Assembly (NCBI GenBank): GCA_017524385.1
Contig: JAFWSS010000177.1
Location: forward strand, 44,932 to 108,931
Length of the DNA: 64,000 nt
Direction: 5' to 3'
DNA from: Prevotella sp.
GTDB taxonomy: Bacteria; Bacteroidota; Bacteroidia; Bacteroidales; Bacteroidaceae
A program made the position numbers and the translations under genes. The notes below the pieces were generated by a model, which made no database searches, had not been told where the DNA came from, and was given only the letters and a program-made list of their open reading frames with translations. Positions within the stretch are counted from its first letter, which is position 1, and every line of letters begins with the position of its first letter. Below, in pieces: positions 8,980 through 36,527 of this stretch.

Positions 8980-10818
8980 TTAAAATCCCATTTTTTTAGG
9001 AACCGTGCCGCTGTCATCGTCCGAGGATTCCTCCTCCTTGACTTTGACTTTTTCCTTTTCGATTTTGAATCCAATGGAAGGGAGATGGTCATCTCTCTTC
9101 CCGCCCTCGAATGCATCCCTGATTTTCTCATGTTTCCTGATGATGTCCATGGAAATGGATGGTTTCGAATTAGCGATGACCTCTTCAAGCAGTTCCTGCG
9201 TGATTTTCTCAAGTTTCCGTCTGAAAGCCAATCTTGCTGCATCAAGCACAATCTTCTTGATATCGGCAGAGATGTAATTCTCTGTCAACCTGGCCAGTTT
9301 CTCATAGTCGATGGCACTGTCGCTTTTGCGCTGGGAGAGATTGATTTCGAAGATGGCGGCCCTGGTTTCCGCATCAGGCAGCGGGATGTAATACTTGTAT
9401 TCCAAGCGACCTGCGCGCAGTGCTGCCTCGTCGATTTCTGACGGTTTGTTGGTAGCGCCTATCACAAGAACTTTGTGTTCGCCACAGTTGTTGAGTTGGG
9501 CAAGGAACTCGTTCACTTCGCCTGCCATGCTCACGTTGTCTTGCTTGCTGCGGTCATGGATCATCGCTTCTATCTCATCGAAGAAGAGGATGGTGGGGGC
9601 GTTTTTTCTGGCCTCTTCGAAGATTTCTGCGATTTTGCCTTGCCCGCCATGGATGTAGGGTGAAGCCACATCGGAGCATTTGATGTAAAGATAGTTGAAC
9701 CCTGCCTCTTCAGCGAATTTCTCGGCAAAGAAGGTCTTGCCGCATCCCGGAGGCCCGTAGAAAAGGATGCCGTTGGGGATGGAGAGGCCGAATTCCTGGG
9801 CCTTCACAGGGTCTTGCAACACATCGATGACGTCAAATTGCAACTGTTCCTTGAGCGCTGTCATCCCGGCAACGTCCTTGAAGCCGTTGCCGGTTTTGCG
9901 ACGCAATGGATTGGATGTGTTCGAGTCGCCAACATTGGTGGCTATCCTGCCAATACTAATCTCGCCATTGATGGCTTTGATGAACTCGTCGGCCGTCTGG
10001 AATCTTTGGTTCTTGTCCATAGCCATCGCCTTGGCCATGATGCAGAGCAACTGCTCGTCCAGACCCTTAAGGGCTATGCTTGGTATCCTCAATGGCTGGC
10101 GGCGAGCTTCAAGAATGGCCTCGATCATGGCGTTCCTGTCGTTTTGGTATTTCTTGACATCCGTATAGAATGGGAACATGCCAAAGACGAGACGGAAAAG
10201 CATCACGCCCACGGAGAACAAGTCCGACTGTATGGAATACACTCCGTTGAGGGCTTCCGTTGCCTGACATAAGGGATCCAACCCCTCTTTCATGAACGAA
10301 CTGATGCTTTGGTTTTGGTACCGCGCATAGCCGAAGTCGATGATTTTCGGGACTGGCAGGCCGCTGGACAAGTCGAGCATGACGTTTTGCATCGTTATCT
10401 CGTTGTGGATGATTGGTTTGTCCAATCCATGGAGGAACTTCAGCCCGTTCAGCACGCCAAGTATGATTTGCTTGGCATCATATACGGAGCATCGTTGGTC
10501 TCTTTCAATCTTTTGCGCCACCGTCTCGCCAACGATGTGGTCGAAAACGATGAACGCATAATAATTCCCATTGATTTGCACCTTGCCGGAGTCGTGGTAG
10601 GAGGTGATGTTCACATGGTGTAATTGCTTGGCGATTTCCACCTCGAGCACCTGTCCGTCTTCGGTGAACTGTGTGTGGTGCAGTTTGGAATAGTCAATCA
10701 ACTTGAGGAAATAGTTCTTCCCCTTGCTGTCCTTCACACGATAGGTTTCGGCGTAAGCACCTTCCTTGATGGGAAAGGCAATCACGTAAGAATCAATATG
10801 TTCATTCTTTGCTAACAT
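8980..10818 (-). CDS. Serine/threonine kinase-like domain fused to an AAA ATPase
   Basis: This 612-residue protein joins an N-terminal Hanks-type kinase domain (about 8-285) to a C-terminal AAA+ domain (about 310-560). The kinase has a degenerate glycine loop (IKEGAYAETY), Lys39, Asn145 and DFG at 161-163. The catalytic HRD is replaced by HNE (138-140), so the base would be Glu instead of Asp. The AAA part has Walker A GPPGCGKT (355-362), Walker B LFFDE (411-415), sensor-1 Asn457 and an RAGRLEY arginine-finger region, most like the FtsH/Cdc48 group but without a protease. No membrane segment is seen. It sits between Hsp70 and TerB-like genes and may be a remodelling ATPase with a sensing pseudokinase. 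Confidence 0.9.
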   Translation of the reverse strand: MLAKNEHIDSYVIAFPIKEGAYAETYRVKDSKGKNYFLKLIDYSKLHHTQFTEDGQVLEVEIAKQLHHVNITSYHDSGKVQINGNYYAFIVFDHIVGETVAQKIERDQRCSVYDAKQIILGVLNGLKFLHGLDKPIIHNEITMQNVMLDLSSGLPVPKIIDFGYARYQNQSISSFMKEGLDPLCQATEALNGVYSIQSDLFSVGVMLFRLVFGMFPFYTDVKKYQNDRNAMIEAILEARRQPLRIPSIALKGLDEQLLCIMAKAMAMDKNQRFQTADEFIKAINGEISIGRIATNVGDSNTSNPLRRKTGNGFKDVAGMTALKEQLQFDVIDVLQDPVKAQEFGLSIPNGILFYGPPGCGKTFFAEKFAEEAGFNYLYIKCSDVASPYIHGGQGKIAEIFEEARKNAPTILFFDEIEAMIHDRSKQDNVSMAGEVNEFLAQLNNCGEHKVLVIGATNKPSEIDEAALRAGRLEYKYYIPLPDAETRAAIFEINLSQRKSDSAIDYEKLARLTENYISADIKKIVLDAARLAFRRKLEKITQELLEEVIANSKPSISMDIIRKHEKIRDAFEGGKRDDHLPSIGFKIEKEKVKVKEEESSDDDSGTVPKKMGF

Positions 10819-10868
10819 AGTCTGATATGCTGTTAAGCGATGAAAATGAAGATTCTAGTTTAAGACTA

Positions 10869-13391
10869 TTAGGAAAGGGGAATATCTATTATCTCATCTT
10901 CCATCAATTCGATTACAGAGCAAACGAGAGGATGCAGGGTTTCTCTTGTTGGGTTGTTGTTGACGATTTCCATACATTGGTTTAGTAAGTCGCGGGCGCG
11001 TCCGGCATCTTTCCAACTCACCCTTCCGAAGAAGATGTTATAATATTTGACAAAGTCTATGCATCGAGGTAGCAAGGTGATGTGGACATTCAAAGACTTG
11101 ATTTCGTCCAGTATTTGGTGTCCCATTTGCTCGTCTTGTTTCTTGATGACCATGTCCGTTCTTCGGTGCAGGTCGGCCACTTGGGCATCATATTCGTGCC
11201 CGAAGTCGTTGTTGGCTTTTTCAAGTTTGGCATATTCCATGCGAAGCTCGGTTTCCAAGGTTTCCCATTCGTGCGCTTTCTCCGTCTCTTCCATCTTGAG
11301 GAATGCACGGCGTAAATCAGCCAGGAGGTGCATCTTCCCGTCTTCCGAACCCTTCTCTCCGTCAAAGCGCCTTGAGATGTCTTCCAGCATCGCTTTGGCT
11401 TCTGCTGTCTCGCGGGCTGTCACGCCAGGTGCTTCGTTGAGCGTTTGCAGTTTGCTCTTGGCTTCTTCAAGGCGTTTTTGGAGCTCTCTTTCATTGACAC
11501 CGGCACGTTGATTGACGTCGATTTCCTTCTCTATGGTCTCGCCAATGACGGGGAAGGTCACCTCCACGGTCATCATTTGAGAGCGGTCCACCTTGACGGT
11601 GATGTCGAGGTCGCTGTTTTGGGGTATTAGGGCGGGGATGTCGTCGCCTGTGATGATGATGTTGGTCACATGGTCGTTGTAGATGGCACTCGACCCCTCG
11701 GCGTCGTGCTCGCCTTGGTAGATGGGGATGACGAGCCGGTCTGTTTCCATGCCCGGGCGTAATTGCTTGGGGGTTCTCAGGCCGTTCCTCACGCCGATGG
11801 CCGGGATGGGTTGGTTCTTCTCCAGACCCTTTAGGGGTACGAACACGTTTTTGTCACGCAAGCTGTCACGCACCTCGATACCGATGTTGTAGGGTAGCAC
11901 GGCGCTACCCACGACGATTCCCTGCATGATGTTCACTTCGTTGGGGAAGCATGGCACGGTGTTTCCTTTCTCGTCGTAGGCGACGATGGTGAAGGAGTTG
12001 GCTTTGCCTTCCATCAGTTGGCACTCGATGACGTCGCCGATGTCGTTGATTTCCACTTTTCCACTTGACCATCCCTTGTCGTTTCGTGTCAGTTCCACAA
12101 ACAGATGCGATGGGATGGCACCGGTGCTTTCCTCGGGCAGCAGCCTGATGGATACGAATTCCACTGTTTCCACAGAGCTGGACTCATAGGCCAGTTCCAA
12201 TGCGACGGTGCCTGTGGTGCTGCCAGTGGCCGTGTTCGGGCGTTTGGCTTCCGTGTCGATGCCAGAGGCGAACAATGCCGCTCCCTTGGCCACGGCGGTC
12301 ATGGGGTCGATGCTGGTGTCTACATTTGGTGTGACTTGATTTTTCAGCATGCTTCTGAGGATGGGTGAATAGGTGGGTCCACCCACGAGGATGAGTGAAT
12401 CGAGGTTCCTGCCGCTCAGGTTGTTGCGTGAGAGTAGTTTCTTGCAGATGTCGATGGCCTTTTGGAAGATGGGCTCCACCACCTGTTTCAGTTGCTCCTG
12501 TGTGACAACCATGTCGGTGAGGTCTAGTTCCTCTCCATCGTCGTCGGTTCCCAAGGTGCCGATCAAGTACTCCACGTCGTCGCAAACGGGATTGAACGAC
12601 AGGTAGTTCTTTGCCTTTTCTGCGTATGGTTTCAAGGCATCCCTCAGGATTTGCTTCTTGGTGTCGTCGCCAAGGATGTCGTCGATGCAGAAATTCTCCT
12701 GAAGGAAGGGTATGATGATGCCATCTACCACGGCGTAGTCGAGGTTTTTTCCTCCAAGATAGTTGTCGCCCTCGGTGTCTTTCACTTGCATGATGCCGTC
12801 TTCCACCTTGAGCAGTGCGGCGTCGAAGGTGCCGCCGCCGAAGTCGAAGACAAGCCATATGCCGTCTTTCTTTGCAGAGCTGAGGCCATAGGCCATGGAT
12901 GCGGCGATGGGCTCTTGCAGCAGTTCGCAATGGTCGATGCCCGCCAGTGTGGCTGCTCGCTTGGTAGCGGCAATCTGGTCGGTTTTGAATTTTGCGGGTA
13001 TGGTGATGACGCATGCGCTGATGTTGTCGTCGGAGACGAATGATTTCAAGGCTTTCAAGACCTCTGCCGACAACTCTTCCGATGAGAAGGAGCGCCCCAT
13101 GAAGGGGCTTTCATATTTGGTGTCCAAGCCCATGGTGCGCTTGAATTCCAGGAAGACGTTTGTTTCTCCCTTGTTCCAAGTCTTGGTTGCTTTTGCTTTG
13201 TCGGAACTCATCTTTCGATAAGCACTGTCTCCTGCGGAGATGACTCTCTTTTTCGAGAATGCGATGCATGAGGGGAGCGTGTCTTTGAGGGTGTCGGTCT
13301 TCTTGATGACAGGTTCCCCGTTCTCCATTTTGCAGATGGCGGAATTGGTGGTTCCCAGGTCAATTCCGTACTTCATTTTGATTTGTGCCAT
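10869..13391 (-). CDS. Hsp70-family chaperone, divergent and long
   Basis: At 840 residues this is longer than canonical DnaK (about 640). The ATPase half is intact: phosphate-1 GIDLGTTNS (9-17), FKR with the catalytic Lys84, LLQEPIAASMAYG, phosphate-2 FDFGGGTFD (182-190), GGKNLD and the adenosine motif LILVGGPTYSP (333-343). The beta substrate-binding part is divergent but ordered (KNQPIPAIGVRNG, DLDITVKVDRSQMM). A long helical C-terminal region follows, with charged coiled-coil stretches, instead of the short DnaK lid. It is not the housekeeping dnaK. Context suggests a dedicated Hsp70 working with the two J-like membrane proteins encoded upstream in the same operon. Confidence 0.9.
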   Translation of the reverse strand: MAQIKMKYGIDLGTTNSAICKMENGEPVIKKTDTLKDTLPSCIAFSKKRVISAGDSAYRKMSSDKAKATKTWNKGETNVFLEFKRTMGLDTKYESPFMGRSFSSEELSAEVLKALKSFVSDDNISACVITIPAKFKTDQIAATKRAATLAGIDHCELLQEPIAASMAYGLSSAKKDGIWLVFDFGGGTFDAALLKVEDGIMQVKDTEGDNYLGGKNLDYAVVDGIIIPFLQENFCIDDILGDDTKKQILRDALKPYAEKAKNYLSFNPVCDDVEYLIGTLGTDDDGEELDLTDMVVTQEQLKQVVEPIFQKAIDICKKLLSRNNLSGRNLDSLILVGGPTYSPILRSMLKNQVTPNVDTSIDPMTAVAKGAALFASGIDTEAKRPNTATGSTTGTVALELAYESSSVETVEFVSIRLLPEESTGAIPSHLFVELTRNDKGWSSGKVEINDIGDVIECQLMEGKANSFTIVAYDEKGNTVPCFPNEVNIMQGIVVGSAVLPYNIGIEVRDSLRDKNVFVPLKGLEKNQPIPAIGVRNGLRTPKQLRPGMETDRLVIPIYQGEHDAEGSSAIYNDHVTNIIITGDDIPALIPQNSDLDITVKVDRSQMMTVEVTFPVIGETIEKEIDVNQRAGVNERELQKRLEEAKSKLQTLNEAPGVTARETAEAKAMLEDISRRFDGEKGSEDGKMHLLADLRRAFLKMEETEKAHEWETLETELRMEYAKLEKANNDFGHEYDAQVADLHRRTDMVIKKQDEQMGHQILDEIKSLNVHITLLPRCIDFVKYYNIFFGRVSWKDAGRARDLLNQCMEIVNNNPTRETLHPLVCSVIELMEDEIIDIPLS

Positions 13392-29552: not shown

Positions 29553-32006
29553 TTATGTGTCATAGTCTCTTTTAAATCCATTAGGAAATAGAGGTCCATA
29601 TAATGTAGGTTCAAGGTTGGCGTCAGTTTTCCCTTTACATGGCTCGAATCGTGAAGGCTTATGATTCATCAACTGCATGGCACTCAACTTCACCTCCTTG
29701 TTTTTTTCCTTGTCAATTAACAACACCCATACGATGGCCTTGTCGTCTATCTTGATGGTCAGTTGGATGTGTTCGGGCTTGTATTTGAAAACATCTTCTA
29801 CATGGATGTGAAATCCTTTGCTATTGATGGTGACCAGTATGTCGTCATCCACATTGTTGATTTGTCCGGTCTTTTTGCAGGGGATGGGAGTGTTGGCTGT
29901 TATCCAGACGACAGGTGCTTCATCTCTTGAACCGAAAGCCATGATGTCGAAGGGGATGGCGGGGAGCAAAAGTTCATCTTCCGCCCATTTCTCGTTCTGC
30001 ATCCTTTCTAAAATCACAGCACCTAACAACAGGTTGTCTGGACGCTCGATAGGAATGCAAGGGGATATGTGCGTTTCTCCGAAACGCATGAAACCAGAGC
30101 GTATGACCTCCATCATGCCCGACTCACATTGTGTCTCGCAAAACATGTCCTCATATTCGTAACAGCATAGTCTCTCCGCATTTTTGCCAAAGGATAGAGG
30201 AAATAGTTGGGGCTCGTGAATGATGCAAAGCTTGGAAAGGTCGAAAATGGCCGGGCTGTTCTTGATCAACATCATGATTTTCAGATAGTCGTCGACAGAC
30301 CTGTAGGTGATGATGTTGTATCCTTTGGACAACTCTTTACGGCAGATGTTGATATAGTTCTCCAGATAGCAGATCGTCGGAGGGCAATCATTGTCGATGA
30401 CAAAGACAGGAAACGGGCTTTTCATCATCCTTTCTGCATCATTCCTGTTTTTGAAATTCTTGAACAGGCGCTCTTCGTGAAAGATCATGCCACGGTGGTA
30501 TATCGTTGTCTTCAGGTCCTGCTGGATGGTGAAAATGGAAAATCCAAATTCTTTCCACTCATAAGGTCTCGGATATGATTCCCTGTTTTCTGCCTGGTCA
30601 AGAATATAGGATATTTGCGGCACTTTCATCAAGTCTTCCACTGCACTCAACAGCAAATCGTGGAGATGGTGATTGGCACGGGGAACCTTCCTTATAAAAC
30701 TGCTGCCATCCTTGTAAGAGAACGTACATGCTACATAGATGTCATCCTCTAGAGCCCACCAAGTTGAACATTCCATTTCCCAATGCTCCTTGCTGAAGAA
30801 CCCGTTGCGTTTTAAAGCTTCGATGGTTGGGGAAGATATGCCACCTGCAATATCTTCGTCAAACAATACGGTCTTTCCTCCTTTCTTTGTCCGCGCCACG
30901 AATGCTGTATTGCAACCCCAGGAATTCAGACAGAACGTGAAAAACAATTGCCCTGGGGCAAGAGGATGATACTCTATTTTGACGGAGTCGGGCATGGGAA
31001 GGGGGTCGGTGACAGGTATGTAAACTGTTTCCAACGTGCCATACTCGGCTTCGCCTATGTATTGCTTATATGAACCGAAATCTTCAACCTTTCTTTTTGT
31101 AGTCTCGGCTTGTGAAAGACATGCATGGTCCATCATCTCCTTGATGGATTGAAAACGCTTCTTCTTCATCGGACACATGGCCTTTTCCACCATCGATGCG
31201 AGGCTGTCGCTGATGCCGGCATCCCGAAACAGATGCTTCGGAAATCCCTCTTCCAAAAGGTCCTCGGCATAGGGGGGCGGAGCGCCGGTAAGCATCTTGA
31301 ACAATGTCGCGCCAAGGGCATAAATGTCAAGCGTGGCGGGGAAAGAGCCGTCCTGCTTGAAATGGGCCTGCTCCAGAGGGGCGTAGCCTGGAGTGCCCGC
31401 GCCGATGGTGGTGCTCGACTCCGGGACTCCGTTTTCATCATACTGTTTAGAGAGCCCAAAGTCAATGAGGATCATGCGACCGTCTTTTTCCCGTATTATA
31501 TTCCTGGGCTTGATGTCCAAATGCAGCATGTTGTGCTCGTGCATGTATTGCAAGGCATTCCCTATGTCGAAGAACGCTTTCATTGTTTCTTGCTCAGAGA
31601 GGTGTCCACGCTGCCTGACATATTCGTCCAGGGTTTCGCCTTCGATGTATTGCATCACATAGTATGTCGTGTTGTTCTCATCAAACACATCCAGCACTTT
31701 CACGATGTTGGCGTGGTCGAGTTTGCTCAGCAATTCCGCCTCTTGATGGAATTTCTTCTTGTAATAGGTGACCAGAGGGCTGTTGGAGGCTTCCACCGTA
31801 TTGCCGTCGGAAGAACGGCTGTTTATTCCTTTCATGAAGAATTCCTTGATGGCTACGGTGACGTTGAGGGGCAACATCCCCAAGCCCCCAACAAGCGACA
31901 CCTTCGTTGTGGCAAGGTAGGTGATGCCGAAACTGCCATAGCCCAGCGTTTGGGTAATCACGTATTTGCCGTTACACAACGTGCTACTTTTTGAGAGTGC
32001 GTTCAT
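29553..32006 (-). CDS. Serine/threonine kinase fused to a degenerate Hsp70-like region
   Basis: The 817-residue protein has a complete Hanks kinase at about 12-300: glycine loop GYGSFG (22-27), Lys54, Glu89, HLD (162-164), Asn169, DFG (182-184) and GTPGYAPLE. The remaining 500 residues read, by hand alignment, as an eroded Hsp70. CLNSWGCNTAFVA (359-371) stands for phosphate-1, CIIHEPQLFPLSFG (594-607) for the INEPTAAALAYG helix, MEVIRSGFMRFGETHIS for the THLGG loop, and NTPIPCKK (705-712) with IQLTIKIDD for the substrate-binding beta domain. The nucleotide glycines are lost and lobe IIB appears deleted. The tail ends EPTLYGP, a motif shared with two neighbours. No membrane segment is seen. 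Confidence 0.85.
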   Translation of the reverse strand: MNALSKSSTLCNGKYVITQTLGYGSFGITYLATTKVSLVGGLGMLPLNVTVAIKEFFMKGINSRSSDGNTVEASNSPLVTYYKKKFHQEAELLSKLDHANIVKVLDVFDENNTTYYVMQYIEGETLDEYVRQRGHLSEQETMKAFFDIGNALQYMHEHNMLHLDIKPRNIIREKDGRMILIDFGLSKQYDENGVPESSTTIGAGTPGYAPLEQAHFKQDGSFPATLDIYALGATLFKMLTGAPPPYAEDLLEEGFPKHLFRDAGISDSLASMVEKAMCPMKKKRFQSIKEMMDHACLSQAETTKRKVEDFGSYKQYIGEAEYGTLETVYIPVTDPLPMPDSVKIEYHPLAPGQLFFTFCLNSWGCNTAFVARTKKGGKTVLFDEDIAGGISSPTIEALKRNGFFSKEHWEMECSTWWALEDDIYVACTFSYKDGSSFIRKVPRANHHLHDLLLSAVEDLMKVPQISYILDQAENRESYPRPYEWKEFGFSIFTIQQDLKTTIYHRGMIFHEERLFKNFKNRNDAERMMKSPFPVFVIDNDCPPTICYLENYINICRKELSKGYNIITYRSVDDYLKIMMLIKNSPAIFDLSKLCIIHEPQLFPLSFGKNAERLCCYEYEDMFCETQCESGMMEVIRSGFMRFGETHISPCIPIERPDNLLLGAVILERMQNEKWAEDELLLPAIPFDIMAFGSRDEAPVVWITANTPIPCKKTGQINNVDDDILVTINSKGFHIHVEDVFKYKPEHIQLTIKIDDKAIVWVLLIDKEKNKEVKLSAMQLMNHKPSRFEPCKGKTDANLEPTLYGPLFPNGFKRDYDT

Positions 32007-32020
32007 GATGGTTTGTTTTA

Positions 32021-32323
32021 TCAGTTTTGGCTATGGTTTGTAGACATAGGGGTTTGCAGGCTGTCTTCTATCGGGGGAGGCCCATACACACAAGATTGGG
32101 ATTTGAAATAACTCCCAAACAGCCATATGAAGGCGCCGACAATCAATATGCCGATGGCGATGATGATGGCAATGACTAAACATGAAAATCTCTTCTTTCG
32201 TTTGATTGGAGGTGGAGGCCCATAAAGAGTCGGCTGGATAGGTGGAGGCCCATAAAGAGTCGGCTGTCTTGATTGTTTCCCAGGTTTGTCTTTGGGTTGT
32301 TGTTTGTTTTCTCTGTCGCTCAT
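32021..32323 (-). CDS. Small membrane protein with YGPPP motifs
   Basis: The 100-residue protein has a charged, proline-rich head with two tandem PTLYGPPP motifs, one transmembrane helix (CLVIAIIIAIGILIVGAFIW) and a short tail with a third copy, CVYGPPPIED. The gene lies 14 bp upstream of the kinase-Hsp70 gene and is surely co-transcribed. The motif recurs at the C-termini of that kinase and of the zinc-ribbon protein at 34826. It may be an adaptor or kinase substrate at the membrane; no known family is recognised. Confidence 0.75.
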   Translation of the reverse strand: MSDRENKQQPKDKPGKQSRQPTLYGPPPIQPTLYGPPPPIKRKKRFSCLVIAIIIAIGILIVGAFIWLFGSYFKSQSCVYGPPPIEDSLQTPMSTNHSQN

Positions 32324-32444: not shown

Positions 32445-34766
32445 CTATATGTTTGAGAGTGCGTCCAAGAATTCCATCACCGTCTGGTAGCGCAGCCTCT
32501 TCATCGGCTCCATAGCCTTGGCGATGCATTGCGTCAGGGCGTCACCGGCCCCGGCGTTTTTCAATATGTCATCGGGGAAGCCCTCGTTGAGTATTTCCGG
32601 AGCCTCTGGCGGGCGCTTGCCGGTGAGCATCTTGAAAAGTGTGCCGCCGAGGGCATAGACGTCCATTGTCACGGGGAAGCCCTTGCCCTCTTGGTATATG
32701 GCCTGCTCTATGGGTGCGTAGCCTGGGGTGCCGGCACCGACCTTAGTGCTCGTCTCTGGTTTCCCGTCGGCTTTGTACTGCTTGGATAGTCCGAAGTCGA
32801 TTAGCACGGCAGTACCGTCCTCGCGTATCATCACATTGGCAGGTTTGAGGTCGAGGTGGAGCATTCCCTTGTCGTGCATGAAAGCGAGGGCGGAGCCGAT
32901 TTGCTGCGCCACTCTTTTCGCCTCGCCGTATGTGAGGCGCTTCTTTCGACTGATCTGGTCGTCAAGGCTGCCGCCCTTGATGTATTCCATCGCGTAATAG
33001 ACGGTGTTGTTGGCTTCAAAGGCCTCAATCACCTTGATGATGTTGTCGTGCTGGAGCTTGCTCAGGTTCTTCGCCTCACGGATGAATTTCTTCTTGTAGT
33101 TGTCGCAAACGCTGTCCTTGCTGCCGTTGGTGACGCTGGTAACCGTGGTGTCGGTGCGGCCGTTGAAATCGCGCATGAAGAACTCCTTGATGGCCACGGG
33201 GATGTTGGTGTTGATACTCCCAAGGGCACCGGCAATCTGCACGGTGGCCAAGTAGGTGATTCCAAAAGTGCCCTGACCCAACACCTTTTGGATGGTATAG
33301 GTATGGGAGGCTCCTTTCAACACGGTGCCCACGGGCAAGGCATTGGCATTCTCCTCGGCTCCATAAAAGCCAGGGTCGCTGGCCTCCAAAACCTGTACCT
33401 CCACGCTTTCGGCTTCCTCTATCGCTTCCAAAAACTCAGAGACTGTCTGGTAACGGTCTTTTTTCCGACCCATCGCTTTCTTGATGATGGAGATGACTTC
33501 TTCGGAAACACCTTGGTTTTTGAGCTGCTCCAGTTCCTCAAGCTGAATGCGTTCGATAGCTCTCTCCCAACTCATCTTTGGCTCTTTCCCTGTCAACATA
33601 TAAAATAGAGTTGCTCCTAAGGAATAGGTATCGACCGATGGTGTCAACTTCACAGGTTCATGTTCTGGAAAATCATAATAAGGAAAATAAGATTCATTGA
33701 AAGATGGAAGTATTGTATGACCAAGCTCTATGTCACCAAGTGTACCACGTGTAAATCTTCCTGTTCCCATCAATATAGGCATACCGTTGTCTCCGATAAA
33801 GATGTTGTAAGGAGTGATGTCGAGGTGAAATCTATCTTTATCATGCAAAAGTCCAACAGCTTGCCCTATGCTCTTGATGATTTCAAGTGAATTGCTTTCA
33901 GAAAACCGACCTTCTGCTTCTATGATAGATTCAAGATTTCTGTCGTAATAATCTGTAATACAGTAGTATGTGCTATTGTAAGAGTCTACGGATACGTCAT
34001 GGCCTTCGTTATGGACTTCTATAAAATCTATGATCTTGATGAAGCTGGGGTGGTTTATCTTTGAATTTTGATAAGTAATACTATTTTGATAATCGCCCTC
34101 AAAAACCATCATTGTCAGTAAACGATTACTTTTGGTGTTTCTTACCAGATAGAGGTAATCACAATCGATACTAAAATATAATTTTTTATGAAGTTCATTA
34201 GCAAATTCTATGTTGCAAATTTGTTTTTTTATTTCATAAGGTATACTCACAATTTGAAAATCCTTAACGATGGCTCCTATTGACAGGAAGGGCTTGAACT
34301 TTTTGAAAGGAGATGTCTCCTGACAAATTGGACAGGTGATATACTTGTTTTTTAGTTTGGATATGTTCCTTGCCCCCAACATTATGCCACAATGAGGACA
34401 TTTGAATTCTTTTATTTCATCCTTAATCTCATACTCCTTCCCTGTTTGAGGAAGCATGACAACATAGTTCCTAAAAGGAGCATCTTGTTTACATAACGGG
34501 CAAGTGTACGATTCTTTTCTTTTCCAAGAATAATCATAATTCTTGTCGTAAAAATCTTTCTCCATCCTCGAGACTTCGCCACAAGATGGGCATATGATGG
34601 ATAAGTCCTCCTTTTCTGCTGTAGGAGGTAAGATTCTGAAGCCTTTGAAAGAATTTTTCTGATTGCACACCGGGCAGGTTAGATTCTTATCTTCGAGATT
34701 AGAATTGTTCTTTGTCGCTAACACAGCCTCACAACAAGGGCATTTGATTCTTATTAATTCATCCAT
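32445..34766 (-). CDS. Zinc-ribbon protein with tandem pseudokinase and kinase
   Basis: The 773-residue protein opens with three zinc ribbons, each two CPxC knuckles (9/31, 59/89, 123/145). A first kinase fold (about 165-450) keeps HLDITPYN but has MGTG at 333-336 where DFG belongs, and lacks the VAIK lysine, so it is a pseudokinase. A second kinase (about 485-773) is intact: GQGTFG (497-502), Lys527, HLD (637-639), Asn644, DFG (657-659) and GTPGYAPIE. The pseudokinase-kinase order recalls allosteric pairs such as JAK JH2-JH1. The N-terminus is paralogous to the next gene upstream. No membrane segment is seen. Confidence 0.9.
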   Translation of the reverse strand: MDELIRIKCPCCEAVLATKNNSNLEDKNLTCPVCNQKNSFKGFRILPPTAEKEDLSIICPSCGEVSRMEKDFYDKNYDYSWKRKESYTCPLCKQDAPFRNYVVMLPQTGKEYEIKDEIKEFKCPHCGIMLGARNISKLKNKYITCPICQETSPFKKFKPFLSIGAIVKDFQIVSIPYEIKKQICNIEFANELHKKLYFSIDCDYLYLVRNTKSNRLLTMMVFEGDYQNSITYQNSKINHPSFIKIIDFIEVHNEGHDVSVDSYNSTYYCITDYYDRNLESIIEAEGRFSESNSLEIIKSIGQAVGLLHDKDRFHLDITPYNIFIGDNGMPILMGTGRFTRGTLGDIELGHTILPSFNESYFPYYDFPEHEPVKLTPSVDTYSLGATLFYMLTGKEPKMSWERAIERIQLEELEQLKNQGVSEEVISIIKKAMGRKKDRYQTVSEFLEAIEEAESVEVQVLEASDPGFYGAEENANALPVGTVLKGASHTYTIQKVLGQGTFGITYLATVQIAGALGSINTNIPVAIKEFFMRDFNGRTDTTVTSVTNGSKDSVCDNYKKKFIREAKNLSKLQHDNIIKVIEAFEANNTVYYAMEYIKGGSLDDQISRKKRLTYGEAKRVAQQIGSALAFMHDKGMLHLDLKPANVMIREDGTAVLIDFGLSKQYKADGKPETSTKVGAGTPGYAPIEQAIYQEGKGFPVTMDVYALGGTLFKMLTGKRPPEAPEILNEGFPDDILKNAGAGDALTQCIAKAMEPMKRLRYQTVMEFLDALSNI

Positions 34767-34825: not shown

Positions 34826-35773
34826 CTATGTCCATTCGCCATGGTCATTGCTGTCGTTGATAGGTGGCGGGCCGTATGATGTAGGATCATAAGAAAAAGA
34901 TTCTTGCTCTTCAACATATTGGTCTATCATTTTTTTTATTTCAAGAGGTTTTATGTTGAAAGAAGAATACGTGGCGAAACTGTCGTCTGGTGAGACGAAG
35001 TCGGGACCTATGATAAATTTGTCAATCTGAGGTATGAACCGTCTTATATCCTTTTCAAGAATTTCAGTGAACTCAGCATCATTATTACCATCGACATCGA
35101 AGCGGATGTTTCCTTCGAAGTTACCATATTTCAATAGCATTTCATAAACGTTCAAATCCTTGTCATACAATACGATTTCCAAAGTGGCCGGGTGTATGTA
35201 CGCAGTATCAAATTCATAGTAGTAAGGAACTTTCCTTACATATAGATTAAGCAAGTGAGTCAGTTTTTCCAAGAATCTTGGATAATCTACCATTGGTAAT
35301 ATAGATGCTTTTGGTATGATGTTAGGAATGATGCTTTTCGGTGTGATAAATGACCGATATGTGCCTGCAAAAGGAAATGATTCATCGTCTCTATTTTGAG
35401 GTATGAATATGATTTCCACCATTCCCGTCTCAGGAGAGATGGTGATGCCTCTGGTTTCAATATCGTTATATTTATGGAAGGGAGCTCTGTTTCTACACAT
35501 CGGGCAAGTGATGGTTGCCTGTGATAAGCCTGGTCTCATCCTTTCTTCCAACACCGTGTTACAAGCAGGGCATTTGATTTTTATCTTTTCTATGATTTCC
35601 CTTTCTTTCTCCTTTTCTTCTTTTTGAGGAAAGGAGTTGGGGATATATTTGTTGAAAGGATTTTTCTGCTTGCACATCGGGCAAGTGATGCTTTTCTTTT
35701 CGAGACCAGGTTTGTTCTTTGTCGCCAGCACCGATTTACAATTCGGGCATTTGATTTTTATGATTTCATCCAT
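34826..35773 (-). CDS. Double zinc-ribbon protein ending in a YGPPP motif
   Basis: The 315-residue protein starts MDEIIKIKCPNCKSVLATKN, almost the same as the kinase encoded next, and has four CPxC knuckles making two zinc ribbons (to about residue 92). The remainder is an alpha/beta region without a recognised family. It ends in DPTSYGPPPIND and an acidic tail. It is the first gene of island B, 59 bp upstream of the pseudokinase-kinase gene, with a -7 box 113 bp before its start. The shared head and shared tail motif suggest that it interacts with both kinase proteins. Confidence 0.78.
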   Translation of the reverse strand: MDEIIKIKCPNCKSVLATKNKPGLEKKSITCPMCKQKNPFNKYIPNSFPQKEEKEKEREIIEKIKIKCPACNTVLEERMRPGLSQATITCPMCRNRAPFHKYNDIETRGITISPETGMVEIIFIPQNRDDESFPFAGTYRSFITPKSIIPNIIPKASILPMVDYPRFLEKLTHLLNLYVRKVPYYYEFDTAYIHPATLEIVLYDKDLNVYEMLLKYGNFEGNIRFDVDGNNDAEFTEILEKDIRRFIPQIDKFIIGPDFVSPDDSFATYSSFNIKPLEIKKMIDQYVEEQESFSYDPTSYGPPPINDSNDHGEWT

Positions 35774-36068: not shown

Positions 36069-36527
36069 ATGAGCATGAAAAAACTTTCCATTATTCTTGC
36101 GATGCTGGCAATGGTCGCAACGGTCAGCGCAACAAAAATCTACCGTGGCAACAGCACCTATGTCGGGAATGTGGTCTATACTTGGGACGGCAAGCACCTC
36201 TACCAAGGCAACTCCACCTACGTGGGCAACATCCTTTACACTTGGGACGGCAAGCACCTCTATCAAGGCAACTCCACCTATGTGGGCAACATCCTCTACA
36301 CGTGGGATGGCAAGTGCATCTATCAGGGCAACTCCACCTATGTGGGCAACATCCTCTACACCTGGAACGGCAAAAACATATTTCGCGGCAACTCCACCTA
36401 CGTGGGCAACATCCTCTGCACGTGGGACGGCAAGCATCTTTATCAGGGCAACTCCACCTACGTGGGCAACATCACCTATACCGCCGACGGGCCAATCCCG
36501 CCTGTCATCATCTCACTGCTGTTGTAG
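36069..36527 (+). CDS. Secreted protein made of six 20-residue repeats
   Basis: The 152-residue product has a signal peptide (KKLSIILAMLAMVATVSA). Almost all of the mature protein is six near-identical 20-residue repeats of the form YQGNSTYVGNILYTWDGKHL. The last unit degrades to NITYTADG and a short hydrophobic tail closes the protein. Alternating Tyr/Val/Ile with NG and DG turns suggests a beta-solenoid or beta-propeller-like stack. I do not recognise a named family. The gene is divergent from the kinase operon. Its secretion and modular copies suggest surface or envelope exposure. Confidence 0.75.
   Translation: MSMKKLSIILAMLAMVATVSATKIYRGNSTYVGNVVYTWDGKHLYQGNSTYVGNILYTWDGKHLYQGNSTYVGNILYTWDGKCIYQGNSTYVGNILYTWNGKNIFRGNSTYVGNILCTWDGKHLYQGNSTYVGNITYTADGPIPPVIISLLL
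36138..36497 (+). repeat. Six tandem 60-bp coding repeats
   Basis: The 60-bp unit is conserved at DNA level, including at synonymous sites in long runs such as GCAACTCCACCTAYGTGGGC. This points to recent amplification or gene conversion and to possible copy-number variation. Confidence 0.9.

Follow-up and report, generated by a model that had tools for sequence, protein, structure and literature searches.

A predicted Ser/Thr kinase of Prevotella sp. fused to an Hsp70-derived part without ATP-site motifs

Bacterial Ser/Thr kinases of the Hanks type can carry a C-terminal sensor domain, as the PASTA kinases do, and the protein described here resembles them in having a kinase followed by a further domain. 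It is the product of an uninterrupted 817-aa open reading frame (ORF) on the reverse strand, at 29553-32006 of a 64,000-nucleotide stretch of Prevotella sp. DNA (hereafter the window), and profile, PDB-sequence and fold evidence supports a fusion of its kinase to an Hsp70-derived part without ATP-site motifs. As in DnaK and the Hsp70 family (PF00012), this part has, in order, the last helix of the nucleotide-binding domain (NBD), the LL of the interdomain linker, an NTPIPxKK segment and the strands of the beta part of the substrate-binding domain (SBD-beta), and its predicted fold fits the SBD best. Unlike DnaK, it has no DxGTT, DLGGG or GGSxR motif, no room for lobe IIB and no alpha lid (SBD-alpha), and it sits behind a kinase.

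According to the passages that PMC7083937 devotes to it, Ssz1 of the ribosome-associated complex is also a non-canonical Hsp70 with an SBD-beta and no SBD-alpha lid, and it has an inbuilt pseudo-substrate. Ssz1 is, however, described there as a separate protein complexed with Zuo1 and equipped with an ATP-binding NBD, whereas the NBD of the window protein is at most rudimentary and its partner is a kinase. An Hsp70 joined to another domain is also found in two von Willebrand A (VWA) fusions (L120, 7132-9192, and L121, 3211-5328; PF00012 and PF00092), but there the Hsp70 part is N-terminal with an NBD, and no kinase is present. These two fusions adjoin other Hsp70-like genes in two genomes of the bacterial family of the window. 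Among the matches listed in the open-licence PMC literature, we found no description of a bacterial kinase-Hsp70 fusion.

The kinase and the substrate-binding domain

Residues 1-300 (31107..32006; reverse strand, as for every feature of this ORF and its gene cluster below) form a Ser/Thr protein kinase domain of the Hanks type. PF00069 matches the ORF at E 3.2e-37 (best stretch residues 71-295) and the catalytic motifs are present, with VAIKE at 51, HLDIKPRN at 162 and DFG at 182; kinase activity is predicted on this basis, in agreement with the first-pass annotation of this DNA, which had read a complete kinase up to about residue 300. Among the stretches examined, 30 ORFs of the source genome, the protein itself included, are related to this kinase at E<1e-3, and many of them carry repeat, FGE-like, FHA-like or membrane tails (labels assigned by eye).

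The C-terminal 488 residues match no Pfam family at E<=10. A conserved module starts at about residue 485, profile A2 aligning to residues 485-784, and none of three module sequences scanned alone matched Pfam HSP70. Aligned with hhalign to DnaK, the module gave 124 columns, which comprise the last NBD helix (LLLGAVI, 659-665) and the linker (ELLLPAIP, 678-685), in register with DnaK and together spanning residues 659-685 (29952..30032), followed by a lidless DnaK-type SBD-beta (residues 680-777; 29676..29969). The score reached 80.8 against DnaK rows and 58.7 against a template of mixed Hsp70s, a fall that the diversity of the template alone may cause. The best matches to the predicted fold of the C-terminal region were Hsp70 SBD structures, among them 6sr6 and 7x3k, which belong to the comparison with Ssz1; of the rows listed, 8glv_Gs, 6u42_5F, 7sqc_Z0, 7n6g_6K and 3wst_E bear names other than Hsp70, and a few of these score nearly as high. 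The interdomain linker and SBD-beta of the Hsp70/DnaK family are present with some SBD residues missing, and conservation across two genera extends to the LL of the linker, the IP/LP-x-(K/R)(K/R) segment and the strand core. That the region of NTPIPCKK (705-712) and IQLTIKIDD (747-755) belongs to SBD-beta, as first proposed, is confirmed by the agreement of the hhalign comparison, its controls and the fold comparison. The two outcomes that had been named as fatal to the proposal, no Hsp70 match or an unrelated fold, did not occur. Overlooked in that earlier reading was the loss of the lid: SBD-alpha is missing in all four copies of the module, with at most about 40 residues beyond SBD-beta in any ORF. 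The other three copies (L009, L018 and L050, introduced below) end shortly after SBD-beta, and the window copy extends about 40 residues further.

The putative nucleotide-binding remnant and the middle domain

The N-terminal half of the module (residues 485-650; 30057..30554) is a putative eroded remnant of the Hsp70 nucleotide-binding lobe. In both AlphaFold models this half runs strand-strand-strand, helix, strand, helix, strand, which is the order of Hsp70 subdomain IA and then IIA; the window model has three additional strands with a pLDDT near 30. The element order of an actin-like fold fits both models, with a pLDDT of about 20-50 in the second half and with sequence profile tests that fail. 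Module residues E116, L119, L122 and F124 are invariant in 4/4 copies, consistent with the EPTAAALAYG helix of Hsp70, and MAFFT puts the E, L and F on positions of this helix. Foldseek alignments of at least 350 columns (gaps included), which reach beyond the SBD alone, made up 12/50 and 15/50 rows, with an rmsd of about 18-26.

In our judgement this half is rather likely an eroded NBD. Several results weigh against this. Shuffled sequences scored as high as the real one in 25/200 cases, in 6/150 with restricted local alignment, in 148/150 in global mode and in 101/150 with a diverse 18-row template. Searched by itself, the N-terminal half found no Hsp70 or actin among five PDB sequences at E<=10, nor among two weak Pfam matches. 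Moreover, the sole VIA row covering it was 3c7n_B (171 residues, rmsd 9.4), whose match begins at chain residue 188, in lobe II instead of lobe I. The assignment of CIIHEPQLFPLSFG to the EPTAAALAYG helix is plausible, favoured by the four invariant residues and disfavoured by the profile tests. The AlphaFold comparison bears out the annotation for the C-terminal fold and is suggestive for the NBD part.

The phosphate-1, phosphate-2 and adenosine motifs of Hsp70 have the forms DxGTT, DLGGG and GG[ST][ST]R. None of them occurs in any of the four module copies, so that Hsp70-type ATP binding is not expected from the sequence of the module. Where DnaK has lobe IIB, the window ORF has only about 20 residues. 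The nucleotide-binding glycines and lobe IIB had both been described as lost, and both descriptions hold.

The claim that some 500 residues follow the Hsp70 order stands for the last NBD helix, the linker and SBD-beta, and fails for residues 306-475 (30582..31091), which are another domain. Among the ORFs compared, the sole relative of this middle domain is in L015 (genome G043; 36% identity, E 1.7e-24), where it sits behind another kinase and where the module profile finds no match behind it. Because the supposed phosphate-1 block at 359-371 (FCLNSWGCNTAFV, 358-370) lies inside this domain, which follows a kinase in L015 without the module, it was ruled out as part of any Hsp70; a hairpin equivalent to Hsp70 phosphate-1 would sit at about 488-512. 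Comparisons of the middle domain with the repeats of L015 and with a neighbouring zinc-ribbon-like protein were not significant in hhalign.

Copies, evolution and gene neighbourhood

The module is present in four copies in three genomes. In the source genome (5.05 Mb, 272 contigs, completeness 99.9, contamination 6.56) the window protein has 33 matches; leaving out its match to itself, a single one lies outside the kinase part. L009 (contig C174, 669 aa) matches window residues 476-784 with 30% identity, in frame behind another kinase; given the 6.56% contamination of the genome, this copy may belong to another organism. L018 comes from genome G367 of another genus, on a contig that starts inside the kinase, and L050 (Prevotellaceae RUG13201; the same DNA as G976 contig 5) is placed in the genus of the window. 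The module of the window copy is 22-27% identical to the others.

The genome sets searched overlap, and all of them except the genus of G367 include the source genome. The window C-terminus matched 2/149 genomes of relatives, the non-source one through the middle domain only, and the L009 module matched 2/301 family genomes. Profile A1 matched 112/393 order genomes at E<=0.001, with the whole module only in the source genome, and profile A2 matched 14/399 family genomes at E<=1e-7, of which two showed the module in full and 12 only positions 182-301, and 2/378 genus genomes at E<=1e-9. In the genus of G367 one of 15 genomes matched, G367 itself. The intermediates joining a kinase to an intact Hsp70, for which a homologue survey had been suggested, were not seen among the matches listed, either in 161 family genomes (longest frame 856 aa) or in the order genomes with matches (open frames of 288-741 aa besides the source genome). 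A phage or plasmid origin was considered and rejected, as no relative turned up in viral contigs or, for the L009 module, in plasmids; the 'phages' collection lay outside this search.

The kinase tree contained 27 domains, 26 from the source genome plus L018; the incomplete kinases of L050 and L015 were excluded, as were the source kinases furthest from the rest (L109, L110 and window 8980-10818). The three module-bearing kinases stand at separate positions, the starred branches force three label changes, and not one of 200 bootstrap trees (0%) unites the three (5-95% range of label changes 3-3). In label shuffles 500/500 were as low, an absence of clustering that three scattered rows would be expected to give. 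While the count of label changes alone cannot separate gains from losses, the separate tree positions indicate that the module was probably joined to different kinases. The modules of L009 and L050 share 190/309 identical residues, with dN 0.246 and dS 1.013 in a simple pairwise count, which places both parts of the module under purifying selection in this pair. In L050 (4501-6501) the kinase is cut short ahead of the catalytic loop and continues as PVEIEPEETVVEESQ-like repeats. That the module was kept while the catalytic loop was lost speaks for a function not wholly tied to catalysis.

The kinase ORF follows three other ORFs of a gene cluster, all read in one direction. Furthest upstream of the three is a protein with zinc-ribbon-like CxxC motifs and a PTSYGPPP tag (34826..35773; zinc-ribbon matches below curated cut-offs). 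A protein with zinc-ribbon-like repeats, a degenerate kinase domain (both by eye) and a second kinase domain comes next (32445..34766; PF00069 in two stretches); its first kinase domain has HLDITPYN, and GTG replacing DFG (by eye). The third, an ORF of 100 aa (32021..32323) that likely encodes a membrane protein, contains a single hydrophobic span and carries the tag PTLYGPPP twice; it ends 14 bases upstream of the kinase start codon. The kinase ORF itself has a C-terminal PTLYGPL tag (29590..29609), located by DNA pattern search and common to two neighbouring ORFs. The PT(L/S)YGP sites, in three ORFs of the cluster, are at 29590-29609, 32214-32263 and 34866-34885, the middle one inside a 30-base tandem repeat (1.9 copies, 100% matches). 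Across the whole source genome 4/5 matches to the DNA pattern lie in this cluster, the fifth being in a short, unlikely frame, and a control pattern gave 0.

Elsewhere in the window, an Hsp70-like protein (840 aa, PF00012; GIDLGTTNS and DFGGGTFD by eye) adjoins a kinase-AAA protein (8980-13391). On contig C98 of the source genome, a similar Hsp70-like gene adjoins a kinase-like ORF (L111, 6045-10205; weak match, E 0.055). Finally, window 36175-36473 contains a 60-base unit repeated five times (86% matches), where long open frames on the two strands overlap.

A possible peptide sensor and its rivals

What could a kinase gain from half a chaperone? The explanation we favour, and consider quite possible though short of probable, is that a bacterial Ser/Thr kinase acquired the last NBD helix, linker and SBD-beta of DnaK as a C-terminal sensor, through which a signal from exposed peptides would lead to phosphorylation. 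The base beneath the sensor, reduced in size and possibly derived from the NBD, has no ATP motifs, and the alpha lid is absent. The first-pass annotation had also proposed a sensor, in advance of what the evidence on function supports. An SBD-beta deprived of ATP cycle and lid might bind hydrophobic or proline-rich segments with low affinity and fast kinetics, like lidless DnaK and Ssz1; passages in PMC7083937 state that lid loss accelerates peptide exchange and that the LP motif of Zuo1 occupies Ssz1, which has no lid and hydrolyses no ATP. At rest the groove could be filled by an internal segment, either the linker (ELLLPAIP), contributed by the protomer itself or by another one, or the C-terminal tail EPTLYGPLFP. 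A precedent is offered by BiP, for which PMC4608358 reports that protomers take up one another's linker in the substrate site, reciprocally to the unfolded-protein load. Exposed client peptides would then displace the internal segment, and kinase pairing or activity would change, leading to phosphorylation. That the PT(L/S)YGP tag is an inbuilt ligand of the SBD is a guess by likeness to proline-rich Hsp70 ligands, and against it, none of the other three copies of the module was found to have the tag nearby.

Alternatively, SBD-beta might be a docking arm that recruits substrates or partners for phosphorylation, such as the PTxYGPPP-tagged neighbours, and does not regulate the kinase. The concentration of the tag in the gene cluster, including the ORF with a hydrophobic span, would fit this, as would the binding of proline-rich peptides by Hsp70 SBDs (structure titles with pyrrhocoricin, apidaecin and oncocin; the LP motif). 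With no tag around the other copies, and with binding putative, we regard a docking arm as unlikely. Nor are we inclined to think that the domain has lost peptide binding and retained its fold alone, for a structural or dimerisation role, and we give this a low probability: the gaps in SBD-beta, the absence of lid and ATP motifs in 4/4 copies and the low identity of the window copy argue for it, but the retained linker LL, IP/LP-x-(K/R)(K/R) segment and strand core and the purifying selection between L009 and L050 argue against it. Interference with, or recruitment of, the DnaK system of the cell, as a decoy for co-chaperones or clients, seems improbable; the higher hhalign score with DnaK rows would suit it, if template diversity does not explain the drop, but the module recurs behind kinases. 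A chance resemblance of an unrelated beta domain is very improbable, since the lack of a Pfam HSP70 match, the N-terminal half without sequence support and the few high-scoring fold rows with other names are contradicted by shuffle and reversal controls, the PDB sequence search, leave-one-out comparisons and two template-free models.

Returning to the sensor, its fullest form would be a one-chain bacterial detector of unfolded proteins, in which client peptides compete with an inbuilt segment, either the linker or the PTxYGPPP tag of the gene cluster, for a DnaK-derived, ATP-free, lidless SBD-beta that thereby governs the kinase of its own chain, and whose cassette was passed among at least three kinase lineages; we put this forward as a speculation that is rather unlikely to hold in full. 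A peptide-gripping DnaK domain in the tail of a kinase nonetheless suggests a switch coupling exposed protein segments to phosphorylation, the binding itself being putative. BiP serves PERK and IRE1 as a separate chaperone sensor. If the domain described here binds peptides, chaperone-type recognition would feed straight into phosphorylation within a single polypeptide, with no chaperone needed as a separate sensor, and it would follow that the peptide-binding domain of Hsp70 can be separated from the ATPase and serve as a module in signalling.
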